A stretch of 64,000 nucleotides of DNA, taken from Tridacna crocea. Its lineage: Eukaryota; Mollusca; Bivalvia; Cardiida; Cardiidae. The notes beneath the pieces were generated by a model, which worked only from the letters and a program-made list of their open reading frames with translations, did not search any database and was not told the DNA's origin. Shown here one piece after another: positions 1 to 51,616 of this stretch (position 1 is the stretch's first letter; every line of letters begins with the position of its first letter). Made by a program: the position numbers and the translations under genes. The stretch spans positions 23,512,427-23,576,426 of the forward strand of contig OX031065.1 of NCBI GenBank assembly GCA_943736015.1, written 5' to 3'.

Positions 1-44
1 GTTTTTGCGCAGCAGTTAAACCTAACATTGACTTTTGACTCGCA

Positions 45-63
45 AGGTCACCAAAATTGACCC
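45..63. promoter_or_regulatory. Inverted AGGTCA / TGACCC pair (representative)
   Basis: AGGTCA at 45-50 and TGACCC at 58-63 form an inverted pair with a 7-base spacer. Nuclear receptors bind AGGTCA half-sites, but a 7-base inverted spacing is not their standard arrangement. It is present at the same phase in every unit. Confidence 0.25.
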
Positions 64-99
64 TGGTAAGAAAACAGGGAAACATTCGGTTTACCTTTC

Positions 100-255
100 T
101 TTGATTTGTGCAACAGGTAGCAGTTGCCTCCGAAAGTGTCCGAGTTGATTTTACAATTTTATGCGCAGCACGTAACCATCACGTATGGGGGACATAGTCA
201 TCGTAACCAAATCAATGGCCCTAGTGAGAGAAAACGAAAAAGAAAAATCCCTATG
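100..255 (+). repeat. Diverged subrepeat A0 (unit 1)
   Basis: It begins TTTGATTTGTG and carries CAGTTGCCTCCGAAAG and ATAGTCATCGTAACC. These are diverged counterparts of motifs in the following subrepeats. At about 156 bp it is shorter than its neighbours. The CpG at phase 235 that is mutated in five units lies here. A yet more degraded relative seems to precede it, since the unit end has GCAACAGCAACCCGTTGCTT. Confidence 0.6.
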
Positions 256-439
256 ATTGACTTGAATGACAGACCTGTCGTCTGCTACAAAATGTTCCAT
301 AAGTCCATGTTTCATGTTTTCGCGGATGCGTAAATGGAACCTATGAGACGGTAGTCAACGTAAATGGTTTGTTGCCATGGTATAAAGACAACGGAGGGGA
401 AAAAAAAAAAAAAAAATGTCGGAAATTTTGTTCCCTACA
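256..439 (+). repeat. Diverged subrepeat A1 with variable A tract (unit 1)
   Basis: It shares TTGACTT, GTCGTCTGC, AAATGTTCC, TTCGCGGAT, GACGGTAGTC and GGTATAAAG, in order, with A2. The A tract (400-416) is an expansion of the GAGAAAAAA seen at the same place in A2. It ranges from 14 to 18 among units and causes most unit-length differences. Confidence 0.8.
381..387 (+). promoter_or_regulatory. TATAAAG in subrepeat A1 (representative)
   Basis: GGTATAAAGA is a good TATA-box match on the plus strand, about 13 bases before the A tract. It recurs in each unit at this phase. No initiator or downstream reading frame supports promoter use. Confidence 0.2.
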
Positions 440-615
440 TTTGACTTAAGAAACATGTGTCGTCTGCCACGAAATGTTCCCTGAGTCGATTTTTCATGTT
501 TTTCGCGGATACGTAAGTGGCACCTATGAGAGACGGTAGTCTACGTAAATGGGTATGTCGTCACGGTATAAAGAGATTGGAGAGAAAAAATATATTAGAA
601 ATTTAGTTCTCTTTG
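440..615 (+). repeat. Diverged subrepeat A2 (unit 1)
   Basis: It aligns with A1 over its whole length. GACGGTAGTC and TATAAAG recur about 185 bp after their A1 positions. It holds the phase-461 CpG, the trimer marker. Confidence 0.8.
567..573 (+). promoter_or_regulatory. TATAAAG in subrepeat A2 (representative)
   Basis: This is the paralogous copy of the A1 TATAAAG, 186 bp downstream. It has the same limits: a motif match only. Confidence 0.2.
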
Positions 616-791
616 TTTGACTTATGCAGTTGCTACTGAAAGAGTCTTCAGTCTTTTTTTAGCCACTTGTCACATTATTTCCTGGTGTTTTCGCATGTGC
701 GTAACTGGCACGTATGAAACGGTAGTCAATGTAACTGGGTTTCCTGTTGCGGTTTGAAGAGATTAGAAGAATTACGCTTCAATGCCCTTTG
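616..791 (+). repeat. Diverged subrepeat A3 (unit 1)
   Basis: It aligns with A2 through TTTGACTTATG, TTTTCGCATGTGCGTAA and GGTAGTCAATGTAA. The TATAAAG of A1 and A2 is degraded to TTTGAAG. A 47-base segment at 630-676 recurs at 816-862 with one mismatch, 186 bp away. Confidence 0.8.
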
Positions 792-886
792 TTTGATTCA
801 TGCAATAGGAATCAATTGCTACTGAAAGAGTATTCAGTCTTTTTTTAGCCACTTGTCACATTCATTTCTGGGTTTTTTGCACTGTA
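792..886 (+). repeat. Truncated diverged subrepeat A4 (unit 1)
   Basis: It copies the first half of A3, including the 47-base near-identical segment at 816-862, then fades out near 886. Where A3 has TTTTCGCATGTGCGTA, A4 has TTTTTTGCACTGTA, so its CpGs are gone. Confidence 0.75.
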
Positions 887-931
887 CATTGATCATTTTG
901 GCTTATTCAATGTGCAGAATTTAATGTGGTC

Positions 932-938
932 TGAGTCA
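932..938. promoter_or_regulatory. AP-1 type TGAGTCA (representative)
   Basis: A perfect TGAGTCA palindrome occurs once per unit within the CpG-free segment. It is known as the consensus site for Fos/Jun-type bZIP dimers. Function here is untested. Confidence 0.3.
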
Positions 939-973
939 GAAAATCTAATTAAGGGATAAAGGGGCATCAAGGG

Positions 974-979
974 TTTATT
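974..979 (-). promoter_or_regulatory. Minus-strand AATAAA (representative)
   Basis: TTTATT on the plus strand gives a canonical AATAAA poly(A) hexamer on the minus strand. It lies about 200 bases downstream of the minus-strand CCAAT/TATA-like module. I found no plus-strand AATAAA in the unit. No clear GU-rich downstream element is visible. Confidence 0.3.
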
Positions 980-982
980 TCA

Positions 983-1007
983 AGGGAAGTAACTCTTGCA
1001 GGGGGGG
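983..1007 (+). other. GGGAAGTAACTC motif and variable G tract (representative)
   Basis: GGGAAGTAACTCTTGCA is followed by a G tract (1001-1007) that is 7 in most units, 8 in units 25, 28, 31 and 39, and 9 in unit 40. Motifs of the GGGAAGTAACTC kind recur, to my recollection, in dispersed repeats of mollusc genomes. This might be the end of an old mobile element. Confidence 0.4.
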
Positions 1008-1013
1008 CTTGAA

Positions 1014-1032
1014 AAGACCAAAACAAGGTCTT
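1014..1032. other. Small inverted repeat AAGACC/GGTCTT
   Basis: A perfect 6-bp stem (1014-1019 with 1027-1032) around the loop AAAACAA. It is unchanged in all units I read. Stems this short are common by chance. Confidence 0.3.
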
Positions 1033-1100
1033 CTGCCACCCTGTTCTCTTAAATTTTGGCCCTTTTTCAGTGAAATCTGGCATGTGTGGATGGTGCATGC

Positions 1101-1115
1101 CTGGCAGTTTGCCAA
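1101..1115. promoter_or_regulatory. Perfect NFI palindrome (representative)
   Basis: CTGGCAGTTTGCCAA matches the full Nuclear Factor I consensus YTGGCANNNTGCCAR at every fixed position. It occurs once per unit, about 40 bp downstream (on the minus strand) of the CATAAAAG TATA-like element. Confidence 0.5.
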
Positions 1116-1153
1116 GGACTGCACAGCAGCCTTCAAAGGAGACTTTAAATCCA

Positions 1154-1196
1154 CTTTTATGCCGTTTTTTGTTCACTGTTTTCTATTGATATATTA
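1154..1196 (-). promoter_or_regulatory. Minus-strand TATA-like elements (representative)
   Basis: On the minus strand, TAATATATCA lies at 1196-1187 and CATAAAAG at 1161-1154. They are about 35 and 70 bases downstream of the nearest CCAAT box. Either spacing would suit a CCAAT-TATA promoter. Neither is a perfect TATAAA. Confidence 0.3.
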
Positions 1197-1197
1197 G

Positions 1198-1208
1198 GGC
1201 GCCATTTT
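1198..1208 (-). promoter_or_regulatory. YY1-like AAAATGGCGCC (representative)
   Basis: On the minus strand this fits the YY1-type pattern AANATGGCGNC. It sits between the CCAAT array and the TATA-like elements. Its GGCGCC is the first CpG-containing hexamer after the CpG-free segment. Confidence 0.35.
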
Positions 1209-1225
1209 GAAGTAATTTTCAAGCT

Positions 1226-1332
1226 CTCTGATTGGCTGATTGGGCCCAGCTTTGAATTTCTCGAAGCCTCTGATTGGCTGACTGGGCCCAGCTTTGAATT
1301 TCTCGAAGCCTCTGATTGGCTGACTGGGCCCC
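1226..1332 (-). repeat. 42-bp CCAAT minisatellite, 2.5 copies (representative)
   Basis: Copies start at 1226, 1268 and 1310; the third is truncated at 1332. Each contains CTGATTGGCTG, which is CAGCCAATCAG on the minus strand, a full-strength NF-Y box with its flanks. The first copy has a second CCAAT nine bases away. The 42-bp period is four DNA helical turns, so the boxes face the same side. Seven units have 1.5 copies and 32 have 2.5, giving 110 CAGCCAATCAG boxes in the 39 complete units. Confidence 0.9.
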
Positions 1333-1620
1333 ATGCTGATTTCCTTATTAACCTTTTACCACACAATGACGCCTTTTTACACACCCGAAAGAGAAAGCTT
1401 TTGAAAATAATCTGAGAAAAGGAGACAATGCAGGTTACCAGCATTTTCTCCTTTTCCCACAATGTTTTCTACCCTATCGAAGAAAAAATGGATTATTGCT
1501 TATTCTTACGTCTTATTGTATCTTTATGGCCTATTTTCAAATTCTTCAAACTAGAACAAGATTTTTTTTTTTAACTGGAAAAAGTTTCCGCAACAGCAAC
1601 CCGTTGCTTCTGAATTCTAT
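1333..1620 (+). other. Unit tail: AT-rich linker with T tract (representative)
   Basis: Apart from the hairpin, this stretch is AT-rich with no recognisable gene. It has a T tract at 1562-1572 (11 T; 10 in unit 36; last T replaced by G in units 3 and 17) and a short GGAAA-AAG-TTTCC inverted repeat after it. It ends in the single GAATTC. Confidence 0.6.
1416..1456. other. Hairpin, 16-bp stem with one mismatch (representative)
   Basis: GAAAAGGAGACAATGC (1416-1431) pairs with GCATTTTCTCCTTTTC (1441-1456) around the nine-base loop AGGTTACCA. The only mismatch is C1426 opposite T1446. It is present in every complete unit. In units 3 and 17 the mismatched C is A and the stem is perfect. There is no terminator-like U tract directly after it. 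Confidence 0.8.
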
Positions 1621-3198
1621 GTTTTTGCGCAGCAGTTAAACCTAACATTGACTTTTGACTCGCAAGGTCACCAAAATTGACCCTGGTAAGAAAACAGGGA
1701 AACATTCGGTTTACCTTTCTTTGATTTGTGCAACAGGTAGCAGTTGCCTCCGAAAGTGTCCGAGTTGATTTTACAATTTTATGCGCAGCACGTAACCATC
1801 ACGTATGGGGGACATAGTCATCGTAACCAAATCAATGGCCCTAGTGAGAGAAAACGAAAAAGAAAAATCCCTATGATTGACTTGAATGACAGACCTGTCG
1901 TCTGCTACAAAATGTTCCATAAGTCCATGTTTCATGTTTTCGCGGATGCGTAAATGGAACCTATGAGACGGTAGTCAACGTAAATGGTTTGTTGCCATGG
2001 TATAAAGACAACGGAGGGGAAAAAAAAAAAAAAAAATGTCGGAAATTTTGTTCCCTACATTTGACTTAAGAAACATGTGTCGTCTGCCACGAAATGTTCC
2101 CTGAGTCGATTTTTCATGTTTTTCGCGGATACGTAAGTGGCACCTATGAGAGACGGTAGTCTACGTAAATGGGTATGTCGTCACGGTATAAAGAGATTGG
2201 AGAGAAAAAATATATTAGAAATTTAGTTCTCTTTGTTTGACTTATGCAGTTGCTACTGAAAGAGTCTTCAGTCTTTTTTTAGCCACTTGTCACATTATTT
2301 CCTGGTGTTTTCGCATGTGCGTAACTGGCACGTATGAAACGGTAGTCAATGTAACTGGGTTTCCTGTTGCGGTTTGAAGAGATTAGAAGAATTACGCTTC
2401 AATGCCCTTTGTTTGATTCATGCAATAGGAATCAATTGCTACTGAAAGAGTATTCAGTCTTTTTTTAGCCACTTGTCACATTCATTTCTGGGTTTTTTGC
2501 ACTGTACATTGATCATTTTGGCTTATTCAATGTGCAGAATTTAATGTGGTCTGAGTCAGAAAATCTAATTAAGGGATAAAGGGGCATCAAGGGTTTATTT
2601 CAAGGGAAGTAACTCTTGCAGGGGGGGCTTGAAAAGACCAAAACAAGGTCTTCTGCCACCCTGTTCTCTTAAATTTTGGCCCTTTTTCAGTGAAATCTGG
2701 CATGTGTGGATGGTGCATGCCTGGCAGTTTGCCAAGGACTGCACAGCAGCCTTCAAAGGAGACTTTAAATCCACTTTTATGCCGTTTTTTGTTCACTGTT
2801 TTCTATTGATATATTAGGGCGCCATTTTGAAGTAATTTTCAAGCTCTCTGATTGGCTGATTGGGCCCAGCTTTGAATTTCTCGAAGCCTCTGATTGGCTG
2901 ACTGGGCCCCATGCTGATTTCCTTATTAACCTTTTACCACACAATGACGCCTTTTTACACACCCGAAAGAGAAAGCTTTTGAAAATAATCTGAGAAAAGG
3001 AGACAATGCAGGTTACCAGCATTTTCTCCTTTTCCCACAATGTTTTCTACCCTATCGAAGAAAAAATGGATTATTGCTTATTCTTACGTCTTATTGTATC
3101 TTTATGGCCTATTTTCAAATTCTTCAAACTAGAACAAGATTTTTTTTTTTAACTGGAAAAAGTTTCCGCAACAGCAACCCGTTGCTTCTGAATTCTAT
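1621..3198 (+). repeat. Unit 2, short unit (1578 bp)
   Basis: It carries only 1.5 copies of the 42-bp CCAAT element (2846-2910), so it has two NF-Y boxes instead of three. The hairpin is at 2994-3034. It is the first member of a short-short pair with unit 3. It otherwise matches unit 1. Confidence 0.97.
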
Positions 3199-4775
3199 GT
3201 TTTTGCGCAGCAGTTAAACCTAACATTGACTTTTGACTCGCAAGGTCACCAAAATTGACCCTGGTAAGAAAACAGGGAAACATTCGGTTTACCTTTCTTT
3301 GATTTGTGCAACAGGTAGCAGTTGCCTCCGAAAGTGTCCGAGTTGATTTTACAATTTTATGCGCAGCACGTAACCATCACGTATGGGGGACATAGTCATC
3401 GTAACCAAATCAATGGCCCTAGTGAGAGAAAACGAAAAAGAAAAATCCCTATGATTGACTTGAATGACAGACCTGTCGTCTGCTACAAAATGTTCCATAA
3501 GTCCATGTTTCATGTTTTCGCGGATGCGTAAATGGAACCTATGAGACGGTAGTCAACGTAAATGGTTTGTTGCCATGGTATAAAGACAACGGAGGGGAAA
3601 AAAAAAAAAAAAATGTCGGAAATTTTGTTCCCTACATTTGACTTAAGAAACATGTGTCGTCTGCCACGAAATGTTCCCTGAGTCGATTTTTCATGTTTTT
3701 CGCGGATACGTAAGTGGCACCTATGAGAGACGGTAGTCTACGTAAATGGGTATGTCGTCACGGTATAAAGAGATTGGAGAGAAAAAATATATTAGAAATT
3801 TAGTTCTCTTTGTTTGACTTATGCAGTTGCTACTGAAAGAGTCTTCAGTCTTTTTTTAGCCACTTGTCACATTATTTCCTGGTGTTTTCGCATGTGCGTA
3901 ACTGGCACGTATGAAACGGTAGTCAATGTAACTGGGTTTCCTGTTGCGGTTTGAAGAGATTAGAAGAATTACGCTTCAATGCCCTTTGTTTGATTCATGC
4001 AATAGGAATCAATTGCTACTGAAAGAGTATTCAGTCTTTTTTTAGCCACTTGTCACATTCATTTCTGGGTTTTTTGCACTGTACATTGATCATTTTGGCT
4101 TATTCAATGTGCAGAATTTAATGTGGTCTGAGTCAGAAAATCTAATTAAGGGATAAAGGGGCATCAAGGGTTTATTTCAAGGGAAGTAACTCTTGCAGGG
4201 GGGGCTTGAAAAGACCAAAACAAGGTCTTCTGCCACCCTGTTCTCTTAAATTTTGGCCCTTTTTCAGTGAAATCTGGCATGTGTGGATGGTGCATGCCTG
4301 GCAGTTTGCCAAGGACTGCACAGCAGCCTTCAAAGGAGACTTTAAATCCACTTTTATGCCGTTTTTTGTTCACTGTTTTCTATTGATATATTAGGGCGCC
4401 ATTTTGAAGTAATTTTCAAGCTCTCTGATTGGCTGATTGGGCCCAGCTTTGAATTTCTCGAAGCCTCTGATTGGCTGACTGGGCCCCATGCTGATTTCCT
4501 TATTAACCTTTTACCACACAATGACGCCTTTTTACACACCCGAAAGAGAAAGCTTTTGAAAATAATCTGAGAAAAGGAGAAAATGCAGGTTACCAGCATT
4601 TTCTCCTTTTCCCACAATGTTTTCTACCCTATCGAAGAAAAAATGGATTATTGCTTATTCTTACGTCTTATTGTATCTTTATGGCCTATTTTCAAATTCT
4701 TCAAACTAGAACAAGATTTTTTTTTTGAACTGGAAAAAGTTTCCGCAACAGCAACCCGTTGCTTCTGAATTCTAT
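3199..4775 (+). repeat. Unit 3, short unit with perfect hairpin (1577 bp)
   Basis: The 42-bp element is present in 1.5 copies (4423-4487). Two private variants are shared only with unit 17: A at 4581, which makes the hairpin stem perfect (4571-4611), and G at 4727, which replaces the last T of the T tract. The A tract is 16. Confidence 0.97.
4571..4611. other. Perfect hairpin in unit 3
   Basis: The stem GAAAAGGAGAAAATGC pairs with GCATTTTCTCCTTTTC without mismatch around AGGTTACCA. It differs from the usual hairpin by A at 4581. Confidence 0.85.
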
Positions 4776-24166: not shown

Positions 24167-25743
24167 GTTTTTGCGCAGCAGTTAAACCTAACATTGACTT
24201 TTGACTCGCAAGGTCACCAAAATTGACCCTGGTAAGAAAACAGGGAAACATTCGGTTTACCTTTCTTTGATTTGTGCAACAGGTAGCAGTTGCCTCCGAA
24301 AGTGTCCGAGTTGATTTTACAATTTTATGCGCAGCACGTAACCATCACGTATGGGGGACATAGTCATCGTAACCAAATCAATGGCCCTAGTGAGAGAAAA
24401 TGAAAAAGAAAAATCCCTATGATTGACTTGAATGACAGACCTGTCGTCTGCTACAAAATGTTCCATAAGTCCATGTTTCATGTTTTCGCGGATGCGTAAA
24501 TGGAACCTATGAGACGGTAGTCAACGTAAATGGTTTGTTGCCATGGTATAAAGACAACGGAGGGGAAAAAAAAAAAAAAAATGTCGGAAATTTTGTTCCC
24601 TACATTTGACTTAAGAAACATGTGTCGTCTGCCACGAAATGTTCCCTGAGTCGATTTTTCATGTTTTTCGCGGATACGTAAGTGGCACCTATGAGAGACG
24701 GTAGTCTACGTAAATGGGTATGTCGTCACGGTATAAAGAGATTGGAGAGAAAAAATATATTAGAAATTTAGTTCTCTTTGTTTGACTTATGCAGTTGCTA
24801 CTGAAAGAGTCTTCAGTCTTTTTTTAGCCACTTGTCACATTATTTCCTGGTGTTTTCGCATGTGCGTAACTGGCACGTATGAAACGGTAGTCAATGTAAC
24901 TGGGTTTCCTGTTGCGGTTTGAAGAGATTAGAAGAATTACGCTTCAATGCCCTTTGTTTGATTCATGCAATAGGAATCAATTGCTACTGAAAGAGTATTC
25001 AGTCTTTTTTTAGCCACTTGTCACATTCATTTCTGGGTTTTTTGCACTGTACATTGATCATTTTGGCTTATTCAATGTGCAGAATTTAATGTGGTCTGAG
25101 TCAGAAAATCTAATTAAGGGATAAAGGGGCATCAAGGGTTTATTTCAAGGGAAGTAACTCTTGCAGGGGGGGCTTGAAAAGACCAAAACAAGGTCTTCTG
25201 CCACCCTGTTCTCTTAAATTTTGGCCCTTTTTCAGTGAAATCTGGCATGTGTGGATGGTGCATGCCTGGCAGTTTGCCAAGGACTGCACAGCAGCCTTCA
25301 AAGGAGACTTTAAATCCACTTTTATGCCGTTTTTTGTTCACTGTTTTCTATTGATATATTAGGGCGCCATTTTGAAGTAATTTTCAAGCTCTCTGATTGG
25401 CTGATTGGGCCCAGCTTTGAATTTCTCGAAGCCTCTGATTGGCTGACTGGGCCCCATGCTGATTTCCTTATTAACCTTTTACCACACAATGACGCCTTTT
25501 TACACACCCGAAAGAGAAAGCTTTTGAAAATAATCTGAGAAAAGGAGACAATGCAGGTTACCAGCATTTTCTCCTTTTCCCACAATGTTTTCTACCCTAT
25601 CGAAGAAAAAATGGATTATTGCTTATTCTTACGTCTTATTGTATCTTTATGGCCTATTTTCAAATTCTTCAAACTAGAACAAGATTTTTTTTTTTAACTG
25701 GAAAAAGTTTCCGCAACAGCAACCCGTTGCTTCTGAATTCTAT
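24167..25743 (+). repeat. Unit 16, short unit with phase-235 T
   Basis: It combines the short 42-bp element (25391-25455) with T at 24401, a pairing seen in no other unit. This suggests exchange between variant classes. A tract 16, hairpin at 25539-25579. Confidence 0.97.
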
Positions 25744-27320
25744 GTTTTTGCGCAGCAGTTAAACCTAACATTGACTTTTGACTCGCAAGGTCACCAAAAT
25801 TGACCCTGGTAAGAAAACAGGGAAACATTCGGTTTACCTTTCTTTGATTTGTGCAACAGGTAGCAGTTGCCTCCGAAAGTGTCCGAGTTGATTTTACAAT
25901 TTTATGCGCAGCACGTAACCATCACGTATGGGGGACATAGTCATCGTAACCAAATCAATGGCCCTAGTGAGAGAAAACGAAAAAGAAAAATCCCTATGAT
26001 TGACTTGAATGACAGACCTGTCGTCTGCTACAAAATGTTCCATAAGTCCATGTTTCATGTTTTCGCGGATGCGTAAATGGAACCTATGAGACGGTAGTCA
26101 ACGTAAATGGTTTGTTGCCATGGTATAAAGACAACGGAGGGGAAAAAAAAAAAAAAAATGTCGGAAATTTTGTTCCCTACATTTGACTTAAGAAACATGT
26201 GTCGTCTGCCACGAAATGTTCCCTGAGTCGATTTTTCATGTTTTTCGCGGATACGTAAGTGGCACCTATGAGAGACGGTAGTCTACGTAAATGGGTATGT
26301 CGTCACGGTATAAAGAGATTGGAGAGAAAAAATATATTAGAAATTTAGTTCTCTTTGTTTGACTTATGCAGTTGCTACTGAAAGAGTCTTCAGTCTTTTT
26401 TTAGCCACTTGTCACATTATTTCCTGGTGTTTTCGCATGTGCGTAACTGGCACGTATGAAACGGTAGTCAATGTAACTGGGTTTCCTGTTGCGGTTTGAA
26501 GAGATTAGAAGAATTACGCTTCAATGCCCTTTGTTTGATTCATGCAATAGGAATCAATTGCTACTGAAAGAGTATTCAGTCTTTTTTTAGCCACTTGTCA
26601 CATTCATTTCTGGGTTTTTTGCACTGTACATTGATCATTTTGGCTTATTCAATGTGCAGAATTTAATGTGGTCTGAGTCAGAAAATCTAATTAAGGGATA
26701 AAGGGGCATCAAGGGTTTATTTCAAGGGAAGTAACTCTTGCAGGGGGGGCTTGAAAAGACCAAAACAAGGTCTTCTGCCACCCTGTTCTCTTAAATTTTG
26801 GCCCTTTTTCAGTGAAATCTGGCATGTGTGGATGGTGCATGCCTGGCAGTTTGCCAAGGACTGCACAGCAGCCTTCAAAGGAGACTTTAAATCCACTTTT
26901 ATGCCGTTTTTTGTTCACTGTTTTCTATTGATATATTAGGGCGCCATTTTGAAGTAATTTTCAAGCTCTCTGATTGGCTGATTGGGCCCAGCTTTGAATT
27001 TCTCGAAGCCTCTGATTGGCTGACTGGGCCCCATGCTGATTTCCTTATTAACCTTTTACCACACAATGACGCCTTTTTACACACCCGAAAGAGAAAGCTT
27101 TTGAAAATAATCTGAGAAAAGGAGAAAATGCAGGTTACCAGCATTTTCTCCTTTTCCCACAATGTTTTCTACCCTATCGAAGAAAAAATGGATTATTGCT
27201 TATTCTTACGTCTTATTGTATCTTTATGGCCTATTTTCAAATTCTTCAAACTAGAACAAGATTTTTTTTTTGAACTGGAAAAAGTTTCCGCAACAGCAAC
27301 CCGTTGCTTCTGAATTCTAT
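25744..27320 (+). repeat. Unit 17, short unit with perfect hairpin
   Basis: It is a near copy of unit 3: the short 42-bp element (26968-27032), the perfect hairpin (27116-27156, A at 27126), G at 27272 ending the T tract, and A tract 16. Only units 3 and 17 have this combination. Confidence 0.97.
27116..27156. other. Perfect hairpin in unit 17
   Basis: Same sequence as the unit 3 hairpin (A at 27126), 22,545 bp away. Confidence 0.85.
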
Positions 27321-38653: not shown

Positions 38654-40274
38654 GTTTTTGCGCAGCAGTTAAACCTAACATTGACTTTTGACTCGCAAGG
38701 TCACCAAAATTGACCCTGGTAAGAAAACAGGGAAACATTCGGTTTACCTTTCTTTGATTTGTGCAACAGGTAGCAGTTGCCTCCGAAAGTGTCCGAGTTG
38801 ATTTTACAATTTTATGCGCAGCACGTAACCATCACGTATGGGGGACATAGTCATCGTAACCAAATCAATGGCCCTAGTGAGAGAAAACGAAAAAGAAAAA
38901 TCCCTATGATTGACTTGAATGACAGACCTGTCGTCTGCTACAAAATGTTCCATAAGTCCATGTTTCATGTTTTCGCGGATGCGTAAATGGAACCTATGAG
39001 ACGGTAGTCAACGTAAATGGTTTGTTGCCATGGTATAAAGACAACGGAGGGGAAAAAAAAAAAAAAAAATGTCGGAAATTTTGTTCCCTACATTTGACTT
39101 AAGAAACATGTGTTGTCTGCCACGAAATGTTCCCTGAGTCGATTTTTCATGTTTTTCGCGGATACGTAAGTGGCACCTATGAGAGACGGTAGTCTACGTA
39201 AATGGGTATGTCGTCACGGTATAAAGAGATTGGAGAGAAAAAATATATTAGAAATTTAGTTCTCTTTGTTTGACTTATGCAGTTGCTACTGAAAGAGTCT
39301 TCAGTCTTTTTTTAGCCACTTGTCACATTATTTCCTGGTGTTTTCGCATGTGCGTAACTGGCACGTATGAAACGGTAGTCAATGTAACTGGGTTTCCTGT
39401 TGCGGTTTGAAGAGATTAGAAGAATTACGCTTCAATGCCCTTTGTTTGATTCATGCAATAGGAATCAATTGCTACTGAAAGAGTATTCAGTCTTTTTTTA
39501 GCCACTTGTCACATTCATTTCTGGGTTTTTTGCACTGTACATTGATCATTTTGGCTTATTCAATGTGCAGAATTTAATGTGGTCTGAGTCAGAAAATCTA
39601 ATTAAGGGATAAAGGGGCATCAAGGGTTTATTTCAAGGGAAGTAACTCTTGCAGGGGGGGGCTTGAAAAGACCAAAACAAGGTCTTCTGCCACCCTGTTC
39701 TCTTAAATTTTGGCCCTTTTTCAGTGAAATCTGGCATGTGTGGATGGTGCATGCCTGGCAGTTTGCCAAGGACTGCACAGCAGCCTTCAAAGGAGACTTT
39801 AAATCCACTTTTATGCCGTTTTTTGTTCACTGTTTTCTATTGATATATTAGGGCGCCATTTTGAAGTAATTTTCAAGCTCTCTGATTGGCTGATTGGGCC
39901 CAGCTTTGAATTTCTCGAAGCCTCTGATTGGCTGACTGGGCCCAGCTTTGAATTTCTCGAAGCCTCTGATTGGCTGACTGGGCCCCATGCTGATTTCCTT
40001 ATTAACCTTTTACCACACAATGACGCCTTTTTACACACCCGAAAGAGAAAGCTTTTGAAAATAATCTGAGAAAAGGAGACAATGCAGGTTACCAGCATTT
40101 TCTCCTTTTCCCACAATGTTTTCTACCCTATCGAAGAAAAAATGGATTATTGCTTATTCTTACGTCTTATTGTATCTTTATGGCCTATTTTCAAATTCTT
40201 CAAACTAGAACAAGATTTTTTTTTTTAACTGGAAAAAGTTTCCGCAACAGCAACCCGTTGCTTCTGAATTCTAT
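38654..40274 (+). repeat. Unit 25, type-a unit of the trimer (1621 bp)
   Basis: It is marked by T at 39114 (phase 461, CpG) and a G tract of 8. Units 28 and 31 share both markers. CCAAT minisatellite at 39880-39986, hairpin at 40070-40110. Confidence 0.97.
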
Positions 40275-41894
40275 GTTTTTGCGCAGCAGTTAAACCTAAC
40301 ATTGACTTTTGACTCGCAAGGTCACCAAAATTGACCCTGGTAAGAAAACAGGGAAACATTCGGTTTACCTTTCTTTGATTTGTGCAACAGGTAGCAGTTG
40401 CCTCCGAAAGTGTCCGAGTTGATTTTACAATTTTATGCGCAGCACGTAACCATCACGTATGGGGGACATAGTCATCGTAACCAAATCAATGGCCCTAGTG
40501 AGAGAAAACGAAAAAGAAAAATCCCTATGATTGACTTGAATGACAGACCTGTCGTCTGCTACAAAATGTTCCATAAGTCCATGTTTCATGTTTTCGCGGA
40601 TGCGTAAATGGAACCTATGAGACGGTAGTCAACGTAAATGGTTTGTTGCCATGGTATAAAGACAACGGAGGGAAAAAAAAAAAAAAAAAATGTCGGAAAT
40701 TTTGTTCCCTACATTTGACTTAAGAAACATGTGTCGTCTGCCACGAAATGTTCCCTGAGTCGATTTTTCATGTTTTTCGCGGATACGTAAAAGGCACCTA
40801 TGAGAGACGGTAGTCTACGTAAATGGGTATGTCGTCACGGTATAAAGAGATTGGAGAGAAAAAATATATTAGAAATTTAGTTCTCTTTGTTTGACTTATG
40901 CAGTTGCTACTGAAAGAGTCTTCAGTCTTTTTTTAGCCACTTGTCACATTATTTCCTGGTGTTTTCGCATGTGCGTAACTGGCACGTATGAAACGGTAGT
41001 CAATGTAACTGGGTTTCCTGTTGCGGTTTGAAGAGATTAGAAGAATTACGCTTCAATGCCCTTTGTTTGATTCATGCAATAGGAATCAATTGCTACTGAA
41101 AGAGTATTCAGTCTTTTTTTAGCCACTTGTCACATTCATTTCTGGGTTTTTTGCACTGTACATTGATCATTTTGGCTTATTCAATGTGCAGAATTTAATG
41201 TGGTCTGAGTCAGAAAATCTAATTAAGGGATAAAGGGGCATCAAGGGTTTATTTCAAGGGAAGTAACTCTTGCAGGGGGGGCTTGAAAAGACCAAAACAA
41301 GGTCTTCTGCCACCCTGTTCTCTTAAATTTTGGCCCTTTTTCAGTGAAATCTGGCATGTGTGGATGGTGCATGCCTGGCAGTTTGCCAAGGACTGCACAG
41401 CAGCCTTCAAAGGAGACTTTAAATCCACTTTTATGCCGTTTTTTGTTCACTGTTTTCTATTGATATATTAGGGCGCCATTTTGAAGTAATTTTCAAGCTC
41501 TCTGATTGGCTGATTGGGCCCAGCTTTGAATTTCTCGAAGCCTCTGATTGGCTGACTGGGCCCAGCTTTGAATTTCTCGAAGCCTCTGATTGGCTGACTG
41601 GGCCCCATGCTGATTTCCTTATTAACCTTTTACCACACAATGACGCCTTTTTACACACCCGAAAGAGAAAGCTTTTGAAAATAATCTGAGAAAAGGAGAC
41701 AATGCAGGTTACCAGCATTTTCTCCTTTTCCCACAATGTTTTCTACCCTATCGAAGAAAAAATGGATTATTGCTTATTCTTACGTCTTATTGTATCTTTA
41801 TGGCCTATTTTCAAATTCTTCAAACTAGAACAAGATTTTTTTTTTTAACTGGAAAAAGTTTCCGCAACAGCAACCCGTTGCTTCTGAATTCTAT
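40275..41894 (+). repeat. Unit 26, type-b unit of the trimer (1620 bp)
   Basis: It is marked by G to A at 40673, giving GGG followed by 18 A; units 29 and 32 share this. A private GT to AA doublet lies at 40791-40792. CCAAT minisatellite at 41500-41606, hairpin at 41690-41730. Confidence 0.97.
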
Positions 41895-43514
41895 GTTTTT
41901 GCGCAGCAGTTAAACCTAACATTGACTTTTGACTCGCAAGGTCACCAAAATTGACCCTGGTAAGAAAACAGGGAAACATTCGGTTTACCTTTCTTTGATT
42001 TGTGCAACAGGTAGCAGTTGCCTCCGAAAGTGTCCGAGTTGATTTTACAATTTTATGCGCAGCACGTAACCATCACGTATGGGGGACATAGTCATCGTAA
42101 CCAAATCAATGGCCCTAGTGAGAGAAAACGAAAAAGAAAAATCCCTATGATTGACTTGAATGACAGACCTGTCGTCTGCTACAAAATGTTCCATAAGTCC
42201 ATGTTTCATGTTTTCGCGGATGCGTAAATGGAACCTATGAGACGGTAGTCAACGTAAATGGTTTGTTGCCATGGTATAAAGACAACGGAGGGGAAAAAAA
42301 AAAAAAAAAATGTCGGAAATTTTGTTCCCTACATTTGACTTAAGAAACATGTGTCGTCTGCCACGAAATGTTCCCTGAGTCGATTTTTCATGTTTTTCGC
42401 GGATACGTAAGTGGCACCTATGAGAGACGGTAGTCTACGTAAATGGGTATGTCGTCACGGTATAAAGAGATTGGAGAGAAAAAATATATTAGAAATTTAG
42501 TTCTCTTTGTTTGACTTATGCAGTTGCTACTGAAAGAGTCTTCAGTCTTTTTTTAGCCACTTGTCACATTATTTCCTGGTGTTTTCGCATGTGCGTAACT
42601 GGCACGTATGAAACGGTAGTCAATGTAACTGGGTTTCCTGTTGCGGTTTGAAGAGATTAGAAGAATTACGCTTCAATGCCCTTTGTTTGATTCATGCAAT
42701 AGGAATCAATTGCTACTGAAAGAGTATTCAGTCTTTTTTTAGCCACTTGTCACATTCATTTCTGGGTTTTTTGCACTGTACATTGATCATTTTGGCTTAT
42801 TCAATGTGCAGAATTTAATGTGGTCTGAGTCAGAAAATCTAATTAAGGGATAAAGGGGCATCAAGGGTTTATTTCAAGGGAAGTAACTCTTGCAGGGGGG
42901 GCTTGAAAAGACCAAAACAAGGTCTTCTGCCACCCTGTTCTCTTAAATTTTGGCCCTTTTTCAGTGAAATCTGGCATGTGTGGATGGTGCATGCCTGGCA
43001 GTTTGCCAAGGACTGCACAGCAGCCTTCAAAGGAGACTTTAAATCCACTTTTATGCCGTTTTTTGTTCACTGTTTTCTATTGATATATTAGGGCGCCATT
43101 TTGAAGTAATTTTCAAGCTCTCTGATTGGCTGATTGGGCCCAGCTTTGAATTTCTCGAAGCCTCTGATTGGCTGACTGGGCCCAGCTTTGAATTTCTCGA
43201 AGCCTCTGATTGGCTGACTGGGCCCCATGCTGATTTCCTTATTAACCTTTTACCACACAATGACGCCTTTTTACACACCCGAAAGAGAAAGCTTTTGAAA
43301 ATAATCTGAGAAAAGGAGACAATGCAGGTTACCAGCATTTTCTCCTTTTCCCACAATGTTTTCTACCCTATCGAAGAAAAAATGGATTATTGCTTATTCT
43401 TACGTCTTATTGTATCTTTATGGCCTATTTTCAAATTCTTCAAACTAGAACAAGATTTTTTTTTTTAACTGGAAAAAGTTTCCGCAACAGCAACCCGTTG
43501 CTTCTGAATTCTAT
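41895..43514 (+). repeat. Unit 27, type-c unit of the trimer (1620 bp)
   Basis: Consensus sequence with none of the type-a or type-b markers. CCAAT minisatellite at 43120-43226, hairpin at 43310-43350. Confidence 0.97.
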
Positions 43515-45135
43515 GTTTTTGCGCAGCAGTTAAACCTAACATTGACTTTTGACTCGCAAGGTCACCAAAATTGACCCTGGTAAGAAAACAGGGAAACATT
43601 CGGTTTACCTTTCTTTGATTTGTGCAACAGGTAGCAGTTGCCTCCGAAAGTGTCCGAGTTGATTTTACAATTTTATGCGCAGCACGTAACCATCACGTAT
43701 GGGGGACATAGTCATCGTAACCAAATCAATGGCCCTAGTGAGAGAAAACGAAAAAGAAAAATCCCTATGATTGACTTGAATGACAGACCTGTCGTCTGCT
43801 ACAAAATGTTCCATAAGTCCATGTTTCATGTTTTCGCGGATGCGTAAATGGAACCTATGAGACGGTAGTCAACGTAAATGGTTTGTTGCCATGGTATAAA
43901 GACAACGGAGGGGAAAAAAAAAAAAAAAAATGTCGGAAATTTTGTTCCCTACATTTGACTTAAGAAACATGTGTTGTCTGCCACGAAATGTTCCCTGAGT
44001 CGATTTTTCATGTTTTTCGCGGATACGTAAGTGGCACCTATGAGAGACGGTAGTCTACGTAAATGGGTATGTCGTCACGGTATAAAGAGATTGGAGAGAA
44101 AAAATATATTAGAAATTTAGTTCTCTTTGTTTGACTTATGCAGTTGCTACTGAAAGAGTCTTCAGTCTTTTTTTAGCCACTTGTCACATTATTTCCTGGT
44201 GTTTTCGCATGTGCGTAACTGGCACGTATGAAACGGTAGTCAATGTAACTGGGTTTCCTGTTGCGGTTTGAAGAGATTAGAAGAATTACGCTTCAATGCC
44301 CTTTGTTTGATTCATGCAATAGGAATCAATTGCTACTGAAAGAGTATTCAGTCTTTTTTTAGCCACTTGTCACATTCATTTCTGGGTTTTTTGCACTGTA
44401 CATTGATCATTTTGGCTTATTCAATGTGCAGAATTTAATGTGGTCTGAGTCAGAAAATCTAATTAAGGGATAAAGGGGCATCAAGGGTTTATTTCAAGGG
44501 AAGTAACTCTTGCAGGGGGGGGCTTGAAAAGACCAAAACAAGGTCTTCTGCCACCCTGTTCTCTTAAATTTTGGCCCTTTTTCAGTGAAATCTGGCATGT
44601 GTGGATGGTGCATGCCTGGCAGTTTGCCAAGGACTGCACAGCAGCCTTCAAAGGAGACTTTAAATCCACTTTTATGCCGTTTTTTGTTCACTGTTTTCTA
44701 TTGATATATTAGGGCGCCATTTTGAAGTAATTTTCAAGCTCTCTGATTGGCTGATTGGGCCCAGCTTTGAATTTCTCGAAGCCTCTGATTGGCTGACTGG
44801 GCCCAGCTTTGAATTTCTCGAAGCCTCTGATTGGCTGACTGGGCCCCATGCTGATTTCCTTATTAACCTTTTACCACACAATGACGCCTTTTTACACACC
44901 CGAAAGAGAAAGCTTTTGAAAATAATCTGAGAAAAGGAGACAATGCAGGTTACCAGCATTTTCTCCTTTTCCCACAATGTTTTCTACCCTATCGAAGAAA
45001 AAATGGATTATTGCTTATTCTTACGTCTTATTGTATCTTTATGGCCTATTTTCAAATTCTTCAAACTAGAACAAGATTTTTTTTTTTAACTGGAAAAAGT
45101 TTCCGCAACAGCAACCCGTTGCTTCTGAATTCTAT
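43515..45135 (+). repeat. Unit 28, type-a unit of the trimer (1621 bp)
   Basis: T at 43975 and G tract 8, as in units 25 and 31. CCAAT minisatellite at 44741-44847, hairpin at 44931-44971. Confidence 0.97.
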
Positions 45136-46755
45136 GTTTTTGCGCAGCAGTTAAACCTAACATTGACTTTTGACTCGCAAGGTCACCAAAATTGACCCTG
45201 GTAAGAAAACAGGGAAACATTCGGTTTACCTTTCTTTGATTTGTGCAACAGGTAGCAGTTGCCTCCGAAAGTGTCCGAGTTGATTTTACAATTTTATGCG
45301 CAGCACGTAACCATCACGTATGGGGGACATAGTCATCGTAACCAAATCAATGGCCCTAGTGAGAGAAAACGAAAAAGAAAAATCCCTATGATTGACTTGA
45401 ATGACAGACCTGTCGTCTGCTACAAAATGTTCCATAAGTCCATGTTTCATGTTTTCGCGGATGCGTAAATGGAACCTATGAGACGGTAGTCAACGTAAAT
45501 GGTTTGTTGCCATGGTATAAAGACAACGGAGGGAAAAAAAAAAAAAAAAAATGTCGGAAATTTTGTTCCCTACATTTGACTTAAGAAACATGTGTCGTCT
45601 GCCACGAAATGTTCCCTGAGTCGATTTTTCATGTTTTTCGCGGATACGTAAGTGGCACCTATGAGAGACGGTAGTCTACGTAAATGGGTATGTCGTCACG
45701 GTATAAAGAGATTGGAGAGAAAAAATATATTAGAAATTTAGTTCTCTTTGTTTGACTTATGCAGTTGCTACTGAAAGAGTCTTCAGTCTTTTTTTAGCCA
45801 CTTGTCACATTATTTCCTGGTGTTTTCGCATGTGCGTAACTGGCACGTATGAAACGGTAGTCAATGTAACTGGGTTTCCTGTTGCGGTTTGAAGAGATTA
45901 GAAGAATTACGCTTCAATGCCCTTTGTTTGATTCATGCAATAGGAATCAATTGCTACTGAAAGAGTATTCAGTCTTTTTTTAGCCACTTGTCACATTCAT
46001 TTCTGGGTTTTTTGCACTGTACATTGATCATTTTGGCTTATTCAATGTGCAGAATTTAATGTGGTCTGAGTCAGAAAATCTAATTAAGGGATAAAGGGGC
46101 ATCAAGGGTTTATTTCAAGGGAAGTAACTCTTGCAGGGGGGGCTTGAAAAGACCAAAACAAGGTCTTCTGCCACCCTGTTCTCTTAAATTTTGGCCCTTT
46201 TTCAGTGAAATCTGGCATGTGTGGATGGTGCATGCCTGGCAGTTTGCCAAGGACTGCACAGCAGCCTTCAAAGGAGACTTTAAATCCACTTTTATGCCGT
46301 TTTTTGTTCACTGTTTTCTATTGATATATTAGGGCGCCATTTTGAAGTAATTTTCAAGCTCTCTGATTGGCTGATTGGGCCCAGCTTTGAATTTCTCGAA
46401 GCCTCTGATTGGCTGACTGGGCCCAGCTTTGAATTTCTCGAAGCCTCTGATTGGCTGACTGGGCCCCATGCTGATTTCCTTATTAACCTTTTACCACACA
46501 ATGACGCCTTTTTACACACCCGAAAGAGAAAGCTTTTGAAAATAATCTGAGAAAAGGAGACAATGCAGGTTACCAGCATTTTCTCCTTTTCCCACAATGT
46601 TTTCTACCCTATCGAAGAAAAAATGGATTATTGCTTATTCTTACGTCTTATTGTATCTTTATGGCCTATTTTCAAATTCTTCAAACTAGAACAAGATTTT
46701 TTTTTTTAACTGGAAAAAGTTTCCGCAACAGCAACCCGTTGCTTCTGAATTCTAT
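45136..46755 (+). repeat. Unit 29, type-b unit of the trimer (1620 bp)
   Basis: A at 45534 (GGG then 18 A), as in units 26 and 32. CCAAT minisatellite at 46361-46467, hairpin at 46551-46591. Confidence 0.97.
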
Positions 46756-48375
46756 GTTTTTGCGCAGCAGTTAAACCTAACATTGACTTTTGACTCGCAA
46801 GGTCACCAAAATTGACCCTGGTAAGAAAACAGGGAAACATTCGGTTTACCTTTCTTTGATTTGTGCAACAGGTAGCAGTTGCCTCCGAAAGTGTCCGAGT
46901 TGATTTTACAATTTTATGCGCAGCACGTAACCATCACGTATGGGGGACATAGTCATCGTAACCAAATCAATGGCCCTAGTGAGAGAAAACGAAAAAGAAA
47001 AATCCCTATGATTGACTTGAATGACAGACCTGTCGTCTGCTACAAAATGTTCCATAAGTCCATGTTTCATGTTTTCGCGGATGCGTAAATGGAACCTATG
47101 AGACGGTAGTCAACGTAAATGGTTTGTTGCCATGGTATAAAGACAACGGAGGGGAAAAAAAAAAAAAAAAATGTCGGAAATTTTGTTCCCTACATTTGAC
47201 TTAAGAAACATGTGTCGTCTGCCACGAAATGTTCCCTGAGTCGATTTTTCATGTTTTTCGCGGATACGTAAGTGGCACCTATGAGAGACGGTAGTCTACG
47301 TAAATGGGTATGTCGTCACGGTATAAAGAGATTGGAGAGAAAAAATATATTAGAAATTTAGTTCTCTTTGTTTGACTTATGCAGTTGCTACTGAAAGAGT
47401 CTTCAGTCTTTTTTTAGCCACTTGTCACATTATTTCCTGGTGTTTTCGCATGTGCGTAACTGGCACGTATGAAACGGTAGTCAATGTAACTGGGTTTCCT
47501 GTTGCGGTTTGAAGAGATTAGAAGAATTACGCTTCAATGCCCTTTGTTTGATTCATGCAATAGGAATCAATTGCTACTGAAAGAGTATTCAGTCTTTTTT
47601 TAGCCACTTGTCACATTCATTTCTGGGTTTTTTGCACTGTACATTGATCATTTTGGCTTATTCAATGTGCAGAATTTAATGTGGTCTGAGTCAGAAAATC
47701 TAATTAAGGGATAAAGGGGCATCAAGGGTTTATTTCAAGGGAAGTAACTCTTGCAGGGGGGGCTTGAAAAGACCAAAACAAGGTCTTCTGCCACCCTGTT
47801 CTCTTAAATTTTGGCCCTTTTTCAGTGAAATCTGGCATGTGTGGATGGTGCATGCCTGGCAGTTTGCCAAGGACTGCACAGCAGCCTTCAAAGGAGACTT
47901 TAAATCCACTTTTATGCCGTTTTTTGTTCACTGTTTTCTATTGATATATTAGGGCGCCATTTTGAAGTAATTTTCAAGCTCTCTGATTGGCTGATTGGGC
48001 CCAGCTTTGAATTTCTCGAAGCCTCTGATTGGCTGACTGGGCCCAGCTTTGAATTTCTCGAAGCCTCTGATTGGCTGACTGGGCCCCATGCTGATTTCCT
48101 TATTAACCTTTTACCACACAATGACGCCTTTTTACACACCCGAAAGAGAAAGCTTTTGAAAATAATCTGAGAAAAGGAGACAATGCAGGTTACCAGCATT
48201 TTCTCCTTTTCCCACAATGTTTTCTACCCTATCGAAGAAAAAATGGATTATTGCTTATTCTTACGTCTTATTGTATCTTTATGGCCTATTTTCAAATTCT
48301 TCAAACTAGAACAAGATTTTTTTTTTTAACTGGAAAAAGTTTCCGCAACAGCAACCCGTTGCTTCTGAATTCTAT
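46756..48375 (+). repeat. Unit 30, type-c unit of the trimer (1620 bp)
   Basis: Consensus sequence. CCAAT minisatellite at 47981-48087, hairpin at 48171-48211. Confidence 0.97.
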
Positions 48376-49996
48376 GTTTTTGCGCAGCAGTTAAACCTAA
48401 CATTGACTTTTGACTCGCAAGGTCACCAAAATTGACCCTGGTAAGAAAACAGGGAAACATTCGGTTTACCTTTCTTTGATTTGTGCAACAGGTAGCAGTT
48501 GCCTCCGAAAGTGTCCGAGTTGATTTTACAATTTTATGCGCAGCACGTAACCATCACGTATGGGGGACATAGTCATCGTAACCAAATCAATGGCCCTAGT
48601 GAGAGAAAACGAAAAAGAAAAATCCCTATGATTGACTTGAATGACAGACCTGTCGTCTGCTACAAAATGTTCCATAAGTCCATGTTTCATGTTTTCGCGG
48701 ATGCGTAAATGGAACCTATGAGACGGTAGTCAACGTAAATGGTTTGTTGCCATGGTATAAAGACAACGGAGGGGAAAAAAAAAAAAAAAAATGTCGGAAA
48801 TTTTGTTCCCTACATTTGACTTAAGAAACATGTGTTGTCTGCCACGAAATGTTCCCTGAGTCGATTTTTCATGTTTTTCGCGGATACGTAAGTGGCACCT
48901 ATGAGAGACGGTAGTCTACGTAAATGGGTATGTCGTCACGGTATAAAGAGATTGGAGAGAAAAAATATATTAGAAATTTAGTTCTCTTTGTTTGACTTAT
49001 GCAGTTGCTACTGAAAGAGTCTTCAGTCTTTTTTTAGCCACTTGTCACATTATTTCCTGGTGTTTTCGCATGTGCGTAACTGGCACGTATGAAACGGTAG
49101 TCAATGTAACTGGGTTTCCTGTTGCGGTTTGAAGAGATTAGAAGAATTACGCTTCAATGCCCTTTGTTTGATTCATGCAATAGGAATCAATTGCTACTGA
49201 AAGAGTATTCAGTCTTTTTTTAGCCACTTGTCACATTCATTTCTGGGTTTTTTGCACTGTACATTGATCATTTTGGCTTATTCAATGTGCAGAATTTAAT
49301 GTGGTCTGAGTCAGAAAATCTAATTAAGGGATAAAGGGGCATCAAGGGTTTATTTCAAGGGAAGTAACTCTTGCAGGGGGGGGCTTGAAAAGACCAAAAC
49401 AAGGTCTTCTGCCACCCTGTTCTCTTAAATTTTGGCCCTTTTTCAGTGAAATCTGGCATGTGTGGATGGTGCATGCCTGGCAGTTTGCCAAGGACTGCAC
49501 AGCAGCCTTCAAAGGAGACTTTAAATCCACTTTTATGCCGTTTTTTGTTCACTGTTTTCTATTGATATATTAGGGCGCCATTTTGAAGTAATTTTCAAGC
49601 TCTCTGATTGGCTGATTGGGCCCAGCTTTGAATTTCTCGAAGCCTCTGATTGGCTGACTGGGCCCAGCTTTGAATTTCTCGAAGCCTCTGATTGGCTGAC
49701 TGGGCCCCATGCTGATTTCCTTATTAACCTTTTACCACACAATGACGCCTTTTTACACACCCGAAAGAGAAAGCTTTTGAAAATAATCTGAGAAAAGGAG
49801 ACAATGCAGGTTACCAGCATTTTCTCCTTTTCCCACAATGTTTTCTACCCTATCGAAGAAAAAATGGATTATTGCTTATTCTTACGTCTTATTGTATCTT
49901 TATGGCCTATTTTCAAATTCTTCAAACTAGAACAAGATTTTTTTTTTTAACTGGAAAAAGTTTCCGCAACAGCAACCCGTTGCTTCTGAATTCTAT
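48376..49996 (+). repeat. Unit 31, type-a unit of the trimer (1621 bp)
   Basis: T at 48836 and G tract 8, as in units 25 and 28. CCAAT minisatellite at 49602-49708, hairpin at 49792-49832. Confidence 0.97.
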
Positions 49997-51616
49997 GTTT
50001 TTGCGCAGCAGTTAAACCTAACATTGACTTTTGACTCGCAAGGTCACCAAAATTGACCCTGGTAAGAAAACAGGGAAACATTCGGTTTACCTTTCTTTGA
50101 TTTGTGCAACAGGTAGCAGTTGCCTCCGAAAGTGTCCGAGTTGATTTTACAATTTTATGCGCAGCACGTAACCATCACGTATGGGGGACATAGTCATCGT
50201 AACCAAATCAATGGCCCTAGTGAGAGAAAACGAAAAAGAAAAATCCCTATGATTGACTTGAATGACAGACCTGTCGTCTGCTACAAAATGTTCCATAAGT
50301 CCATGTTTCATGTTTTCGCGGATGCGTAAATGGAACCTATGAGACGGTAGTCAACGTAAATGGTTTGTTGCCATGGTATAAAGACAACGGAGGGAAAAAA
50401 AAAAAAAAAAAATGTCGGAAATTTTGTTCCCTACATTTGACTTAAGAAACATGTGTCGTCTGCCACGAAATGTTCCCTGAGTCGATTTTTCATGTTTTTC
50501 GCGGATACGTAAGTGGCACCTATGAGAGACGGTAGTCTACGTAAATGGGTATGTCGTCACGGTATAAAGAGATTGGAGAGAAAAAATATATTAGAAATTT
50601 AGTTCTCTTTGTTTGACTTATGCAGTTGCTACTGAAAGAGTCTTCAGTCTTTTTTTAGCCACTTGTCACATTATTTCCTGGTGTTTTCGCATGTGCGTAA
50701 CTGGCACGTATGAAACGGTAGTCAATGTAACTGGGTTTCCTGTTGCGGTTTGAAGAGATTAGAAGAATTACGCTTCAATGCCCTTTGTTTGATTCATGCA
50801 ATAGGAATCAATTGCTACTGAAAGAGTATTCAGTCTTTTTTTAGCCACTTGTCACATTCATTTCTGGGTTTTTTGCACTGTACATTGATCATTTTGGCTT
50901 ATTCAATGTGCAGAATTTAATGTGGTCTGAGTCAGAAAATCTAATTAAGGGATAAAGGGGCATCAAGGGTTTATTTCAAGGGAAGTAACTCTTGCAGGGG
51001 GGGCTTGAAAAGACCAAAACAAGGTCTTCTGCCACCCTGTTCTCTTAAATTTTGGCCCTTTTTCAGTGAAATCTGGCATGTGTGGATGGTGCATGCCTGG
51101 CAGTTTGCCAAGGACTGCACAGCAGCCTTCAAAGGAGACTTTAAATCCACTTTTATGCCGTTTTTTGTTCACTGTTTTCTATTGATATATTAGGGCGCCA
51201 TTTTGAAGTAATTTTCAAGCTCTCTGATTGGCTGATTGGGCCCAGCTTTGAATTTCTCGAAGCCTCTGATTGGCTGACTGGGCCCAGCTTTGAATTTCTC
51301 GAAGCCTCTGATTGGCTGACTGGGCCCCATGCTGATTTCCTTATTAACCTTTTACCACACAATGACGCCTTTTTACACACCCGAAAGAGAAAGCTTTTGA
51401 AAATAATCTGAGAAAAGGAGACAATGCAGGTTACCAGCATTTTCTCCTTTTCCCACAATGTTTTCTACCCTATCGAAGAAAAAATGGATTATTGCTTATT
51501 CTTACGTCTTATTGTATCTTTATGGCCTATTTTCAAATTCTTCAAACTAGAACAAGATTTTTTTTTTTAACTGGAAAAAGTTTCCGCAACAGCAACCCGT
51601 TGCTTCTGAATTCTAT
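49997..51616 (+). repeat. Unit 32, type-b unit of the trimer (1620 bp)
   Basis: A at 50395 (GGG then 18 A), as in units 26 and 29. CCAAT minisatellite at 51222-51328, hairpin at 51412-51452. Confidence 0.97.

Follow-up and report, generated by a model that had tools for sequence, protein, structure and literature searches.

A promoter-like motif module with two or three tandem CCAAT boxes in a long-unit satellite of Tridacna crocea, possibly a captured passenger

Satellite DNA with promoter-like motifs is of a kind already in print. The RPCS satellite of rodents has a 348-bp monomer that is said to match a retroviral U3, and its unit is described as resembling a retroviral LTR in its CCAAT boxes, its TATA box, its NF-1-related sites and its putative poly(A) signals (PMC3648361). 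The maize arrays CRM1TR and CRM4TR are tandem repeats built from an LTR/UTR piece, which in CRM4TR includes a TATA box, and ESTs and cDNAs derived from these repeats are described in the same source (PMC3648361). The U3 of human LTR12 (ERV9) contains tandem units of ~41 nt in 5-17 copies with NF-Y CCAAT sites (PMC11853044), while mouse gamma-satellite and human SatIII are arrays that recruit the sequence-specific factors YY1 and HSF1, respectively (PMC6309819). Further, direct CCAAT repeats at whole helical turns are reported for NF-Y promoters (PMC4982600, PMC4419714); at those targeted by c-Fos the spacings given are about 31, 41, 52 and 63 bp, and 24 bp is given as the minimum spacing for joint NF-Y occupancy (PMC4982600).

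Here, we analysed a 64-kb stretch of T. crocea DNA (the window), in which each repeat unit carries CCAAT boxes followed by YY1-type, TATA-like, NFI-like and AATAAA motifs on the minus strand. The RPCS-like motif set is present in loose form in its entirety, with the CATAAAAG-type motif and AATAAA at chance frequency; homology to any of the named systems is unproven. The comparison with RPCS is one of motif content, and whereas RPCS is 348 bp long, the cassette studied here belongs to a longer unit of ~1,620 bp. LTR12 likewise has tandem NF-Y units of varying copy number, located upstream of its start site, but its members are LTRs, of which human has about 5,000, that also bear GATA and MZF1 sites and are of proven activity, while the repeats here are present in two or three copies within a satellite and any activity of theirs is putative. 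By analogy, the ~41-nt NF-Y repeats of LTR12 would be the closest functional parallel. CRM1TR and CRM4TR differ in being from a plant and having a known parent element, and the account of them in PMC3648361 mentions no NF-Y repeats in the parts that describe the arrays. For gamma-satellite and SatIII, the factors are others and binding was shown, whereas it is predicted here; the tandem-CCAAT promoters belong to genes, and their main reported spacing is 31 bp against 42 bp in this array.

Anatomy of the array

The window is one tandem array, with 39 full units and a partial 40th that is cut at phase 1130. The full units range from 1,577 to 1,621 bp and fall into classes of 1,617-1,621 bp (n = 31), 1,613 bp (n = 1, with a 7-bp deletion) and 1,577-1,578 bp (n = 7), the last of which lack one 42-bp copy. 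Their mean pairwise identity over ungapped columns is 0.99885 (99.88%). The array is complex long-unit satellite DNA, made of head-to-tail, near-identical, non-coding units. The Pfam search covered 10 of the 11 stop-to-stop frames of at least 55 aa (the 58-aa frame at 1013..1189 on the plus strand was left out), and none of the 10 matched a family at the cut-off, the one sub-threshold match having an E value of 0.16. No Rfam family reached its gathering score on phase 1-3300, where the 10 matches obtained at E up to 10 were all far under the gathering scores; no tRNA was identified by ARAGORN, and the CENP-B core is absent. Matches resembling Pol III boxes, one to the B box at 776 (+) and three to the A box at 1233, 1275 and 1317 (+), the latter all within the CCAAT subrepeats, were taken as chance.

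The plus strand of the unit carries monomers of 155-181 bp in a region that spans 95..881 overall (Table 1). A profile built from the four clear monomers matched these with E values of 6.8e-32 to 1.4e-42, which are in-sample scores. The truncated fifth monomer was matched at 793-879 with an E value of 0.023, and its stretch 813-881 is 88% identical to 627-695. A divergent sixth monomer may perhaps lie across the unit junction at about 1585-1720, where there are short matches only and the profile E values are 1.1-1.4. Between 882 and 1584 the profile gave noise-level matches only (E 1.1 or worse), and by the profile alone the match-free stretch would extend across the unit junction and end near phase 100 in the unit that follows. 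The CpG observed/expected ratio is 0.29 at 882-1584 against 1.04 at 95-881, but CpG poverty starts within the monomers (1.09 at 1-720, 0.36 at 721-881) and is therefore no clean marker of the ~700-bp segment. The segment contains 8 CpGs, and one of them, at 1200, falls within the YY1-type site.

Two further features were observed in this segment. Phase 1395-1475, which includes the near-palindrome, folds as RNA at -30.7 kcal/mol with a z score of -5.05; the loop of the near-palindrome is too small for a usual microRNA precursor, and as DNA the structure could be extruded as a cruciform. The sequence AAGGGAAGTAACTC at 984-997 may resemble a motif of mollusc repeats; searching AAGGGAAGTAACTC and its variants in literature full text gave no paper on such repeats, judged by title.

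Table 1. Features of the satellite unit, in phase coordinates
Feature	Phase	Strand	Remarks
Full unit of the tandem array	1..1620		Phase 1 = GTTTTTGCGCAGCAG
Four clear monomers	100-254, 257-437, 440-614, 617-789	+	Monomer profile
Truncated fifth monomer	793-881	+	Profile, and identity of 813-881 to 627-695
~700-bp segment without monomer match	882..1584		CpG-poor, contains the module; boundaries approximate
Near-palindrome, 67 bp, adjoining the module	1403..1469		33-nt arms, 82% complementary, 1-nt loop
CCAAT box c, CAGCCAATCAG	1312..1322	-	NF-Y-type, distal; exact motif
CCAAT box b, CAGCCAATCAG	1270..1280	-	Missing in 7 of 39 units
CCAAT box a, CAGCCAATCAG	1228..1238	-	Exact motif
Fourth CCAAT	1243-1239	-	Abuts box a, 8 bp from the box a CCAAT
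Candidate start, A of TTACTTC	1213	-	Inr-like YYANWYY, 5 bp before the YY1-type site; motif short and common
YY1-type site, AAAATGGCGCC	1198..1208	-	Sense orientation for minus-strand transcription
TATA-like, TAATATATCA	1187..1196	-	Exact motif
TATA-like, CATAAAAG	1154..1161	-	0.89 matches of the type expected per single-box unit, both strands
NFI-like, TTGGCAAACTGCCAG	1101..1115	-	TGGCA-N3-TGCCA core
AATAAA, possible poly(A) signal	974..979	-	2.7 per unit expected by chance on both strands, 1 found

The motif module and its statistical weight

The motifs stand on the minus strand of unit 1 where the initial annotation had described them, and in the same order. Within the window AAAATGGCGCC, TAATATATCA and CATAAAAG occur 39 times each, all three in every full unit, while the NFI-like site and AATAAA occur 40 times each and CAGCCAATCAG occurs 110 times (3 x 32 + 2 x 7). 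The description of three CCAAT boxes per unit therefore holds for 32 of the 39 full units, and the other seven have two. AATAAA, said to follow about 200 bases on, was found at 979-974, 175 bp beyond CATAAAAG. What had been called a perfect NFI palindrome is perfect in its TGGCA-N3-TGCCA core but is not TTGGC-N5-GCCAA, which has no match in the unit, and TTGGCAAACTGCCAG conforms to the loose consensus only. The CCAAT boxes conform well to the NF-Y consensus, and NF-Y binding is predicted for them.

Boxes a, b and c each belong to a copy of the same 42-bp subrepeat, and thus are not three independent sites. As direct repeats spaced by 42 bp (4.0 helical turns), they come to within 1 bp of the 41-bp spacing in the series of PMC4982600. 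The fourth CCAAT would not be filled together with box a if the minimum given in that source holds, since the two lie 8 bp apart. The middle box b combines the T-to-C change seen in box c with a tail like that of box a, a hybrid of the sort expected from unequal exchange, and it is exactly this 42-bp copy that the seven two-box units miss.

To find how often such motifs arise by chance, we reduced the unit to one box and recorded the fraction of 2,000 dinucleotide shuffles that held at least as many matches. Exact CAGCCAATCAG gave a fraction of 0.0015, and exact AAAATGGCGCC and TAATATATCA gave 0.001 each, any named 10- or 11-mer being rare. The degenerate forms gave 0.10 for NF-Y, 0.0085 for AANATGGCGNC and 0.028 for TTGGC-N5-GCC, while [TC]ATAAA[AT][AG], the CATAAAAG-type motif, and AATAAA were at chance frequency (0.59 and 0.94). 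The ordered NF-Y/YY1/TATA-like set as named did not occur in any of the 2,000 shuffles, and a relaxed set occurred in 6.

Because the motifs had been picked after looking, a look-elsewhere control was needed, in which the best 180-bp window was sought over 42 consensus motifs, those of at least 12 bits being scored. The best-scoring window of the single-box unit was the module itself. With the whole library, which counts CCAAT twice through the CHO pattern and includes an IRF-like match that lies more than 180 bp off in the real three-box unit, its score was reached in 1 of 400 (0.0025) and in 2 of 1,000 shuffles. Leaving out the CHO pattern raised this to 6 of 1,000, and leaving out the IRF-like pattern as well (NF-Y, YY1 and CATAAAWR) raised it to 50 of 1,000; when CATAAAWR, which had been put into the library because of this module, was also dropped, NF-Y and YY1 alone gave 250 of 1,000. 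These results indicate that the module exceeds chance if the motifs are taken as named, that it becomes marginal after correction for how they were chosen, and that calling it hard to explain as neutral filler was too strong.

Origin and possible activity of the module

The order NF-Y, YY1, TATA had been read as promoter-like, yet it is not canonical. In human promoters, sense-strand AANATGGCG is reported mostly at +1 to +25, just after the start, with some excess to +80 (PMC1088961). A TATA box would normally stand about 30 bp before a start and before any sense YY1 site, and both TATA-like motifs here lie downstream of the YY1-type site on the minus strand. By the YY1 rule the start would be at about 1208-1232, upstream of both TATA-like motifs. 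We infer that minus-strand transcription, if it occurs occasionally, would begin there rather than at 1125-1165, which would place the CCAATs of boxes a, b and c at -22, -64 and -106; such rules are mostly human biology and may not be those of the host. As far as the motifs can tell, NF-Y binding to the module is plausible and transcription possible, while a selected function is unproven.

We tentatively favour, with confidence somewhat short of even, a promoter- or LTR-like fragment that was captured and amplified, is able to bind NF-Y and is mostly a passenger; the same guarded degree applies to the reading as a whole, in which the satellite was recently amplified and its monomers are old and divergent. 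The unit would join these ~155-181-bp monomers to an unlike ~700-bp stretch that probably came from outside. The cassette would be a promoter fragment, from a host gene, an LTR or another mobile element, that entered the satellite in a single capture. Unequal exchange would then have spread it through the array and also turned the CCAAT box into a 42-bp subrepeat of two to three copies. NF-Y may bind the boxes when the chromatin is accessible, and the data can be explained without a selected function. In favour of capture we count the confinement of profile matches to sequence outside 882-1584, the contrast in CpG ratio, the hybrid box b, the high identity of the units with variants shared at three-unit spacing, the lack of excess conservation in the module, the lack of a Pfam or Rfam family at cut-off in the frames and phases searched, a single-box reading frame below the shuffle mean, and the printed precedents of RPCS and of tandem repeats derived from LTRs. 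Against it stand the marginal motif set, by which there may be no promoter fragment at all, the onset of CpG poverty within the monomers, the extension of the match-free stretch over the unit junction, and LTR-like ends that are not clearly above chance. The absence of the strict ordered set from 2,000 shuffles also speaks against the passenger view, as it leaves a still-used promoter possible. A source copy of the segment was not found in virus, plasmid, phage, bacterial and archaeal collections: plasmids gave no match at E 0.01, the phage search gave matches in 26 records, of which the 20 listed had E 3-9 and were taken as chance, and exact patterns were found neither in viral contigs (two patterns) nor in genome contigs (one pattern). 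Exact strings from the window had a sole match in literature full text, in a paper on aptamers.

The main rival to a captured fragment, unlikely on balance, is that ordinary satellite sequence happens to match common motifs and that one CCAAT-bearing stretch was duplicated in tandem. The unremarkable degenerate NF-Y, TATA-like and AATAAA motifs fit this, as does the post hoc choice of motifs together with the library control (50 of 1,000 with CATAAAWR, 250 of 1,000 with NF-Y and YY1 alone), whereas the rarity of exact CAGCCAATCAG (0.0015) and of AANATGGCGNC (0.0085) and the failure of 2,000 shuffles to yield the ordered set argue the other way. That same failure would also fit a working promoter in each unit, at which NF-Y would open chromatin and Pol II would transcribe the minus strand into a short repeat RNA, perhaps under stress or in the germ line or embryo. 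Near-identical NF-Y-type sites at a distance within 1 bp of an NF-Y/c-Fos spacing class (PMC4982600), the sense YY1-type site with an Inr-like A 5 bp before it, and the precedents of YY1 at mouse gamma-satellite and HSF1 at human SatIII (PMC6309819) are in line with such a promoter. We regard it as decidedly unlikely, given that the CATAAAAG-type motif and AATAAA are at chance level, the TATA-like motifs follow the YY1 site instead of preceding it, the set is marginal after look-elsewhere correction and the module shows no constraint beyond homogenisation. Highly doubtful is the stronger form, a live NF-Y/YY1 promoter per unit whose 110 CAGCCAATCAG in 64 kb would act as a self-opening battery of NF-Y sites, producing minus-strand RNA and titrating NF-Y in early divisions or the germ line.

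One possible origin inside the captured-fragment reading, whose probability overlaps with it and which is in itself decidedly unlikely, is that the ~700-bp segment represents a solo LTR, or part of one, lying in minus orientation, with a U3 bearing the 42-bp NF-Y repeats, a TATA-like motif and AATAAA. The layout resembles the LTR12 U3 (PMC11853044) and the RPCS satellite (PMC3648361) as these are described, and among 9 candidates with TG...CA ends and duplications, that at minus 1363..913 is flanked by CATTG on both sides. However, 9 candidates are not clearly above the 5.77 obtained in 500 shuffles (P 0.18), nor are the 4 with 5-6-bp duplications compared with 1.52 (P 0.08), there is no coding part, and no related element was found in the virus, plasmid, phage, bacterial and archaeal collections. 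A cell-cycle promoter of the CDE/CHR (DREAM) type, in which GGGCGCC...TTTGAA with several CCAAT boxes would take the place of a YY1 site, seems very improbable. Mitotic promoters are reported to have two or three CCAAT boxes with CDE/CHR sites (PMC4419714), and the plus strand at 1198-1212 reads GGCGCCATTTTGAAG, but the pattern GGCGS-N4-TTTGAA is not among the motif matches, the gap from GGGCGC to TTTGAA is 3 bp, and the CHR would precede the CDE in the minus-strand direction. Finally, it is hardly credible that the 42-bp repeats, equal to 14 codons, are part of a coding frame: a minus frame does run through the boxes, with 95 aa in three-box and 81 aa in two-box units, and the longest ATG frame of the unit is also 95 aa, but a stop-free 42-bp repeat is enough to extend any frame, shuffles average 78.6 aa where the single-box form reaches 67 aa, and the 95-aa frame has no Pfam match at E up to 1.

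Satellites with embedded promoters would offer a testable route to satellite RNA and local open chromatin. If the module is inert, it is a clean example that a motif common to all homogenised units says nothing about selection.

Variation among the units

The initial annotation had stressed that the module is present in every unit. Its motifs are indeed in 39 of 39 full units, with the box number varying as described, but this presence is no evidence of function since identity among the units is 99.88% over their whole length. A substitution (at 1171) sets one of the 39 modules apart, and 7 differ by the missing copy. Over the 24 substitution sites outside the A-run, the 179-bp module has 1 against 2.65 expected (P 0.24), and among the 16 non-CpG sites the module has 1 (P 0.46) and the segment 882-1584 has 7 (P 0.61). 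Thus the module shows no constraint beyond homogenisation, in a variation test that with 24 sites is of little power. Constraint was also considered for 836-1383, where 548 bp have 2 substitutions, and was rejected, the scan P being 0.066 and, without CpG sites, 0.48; by the latter value, CpG poverty can explain the low variation. Among all 26 substitution sites, 8 are on CpG bases (131-750), and 7 of these 8 are C-to-T or G-to-A, which suggests CpG methylation decay in phase 1-750, of which the part 1-720 is CpG-rich.

With either two or three boxes per unit, the array itself provides a natural dose series for NF-Y binding. Of the seven two-box units, six form neighbouring pairs, U02-U03 (1621-4775 in the window), U16-U17 (24167-27320) and U34-U35 (53237-56392), and U03 and U17 have two more variants in common, 1426A and 1572G, which makes it probable that a block from one part of the array was copied to another far away. 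In U25-U32 (38654-51616), variants recur with a period of three units, 461T together with an extra G near 1000 in U25, U28 and U31, and 399A in U26, U29 and U32, which points to duplication of a three-unit block. The extra G near 1000 also occurs alone, without 461T, in U39.
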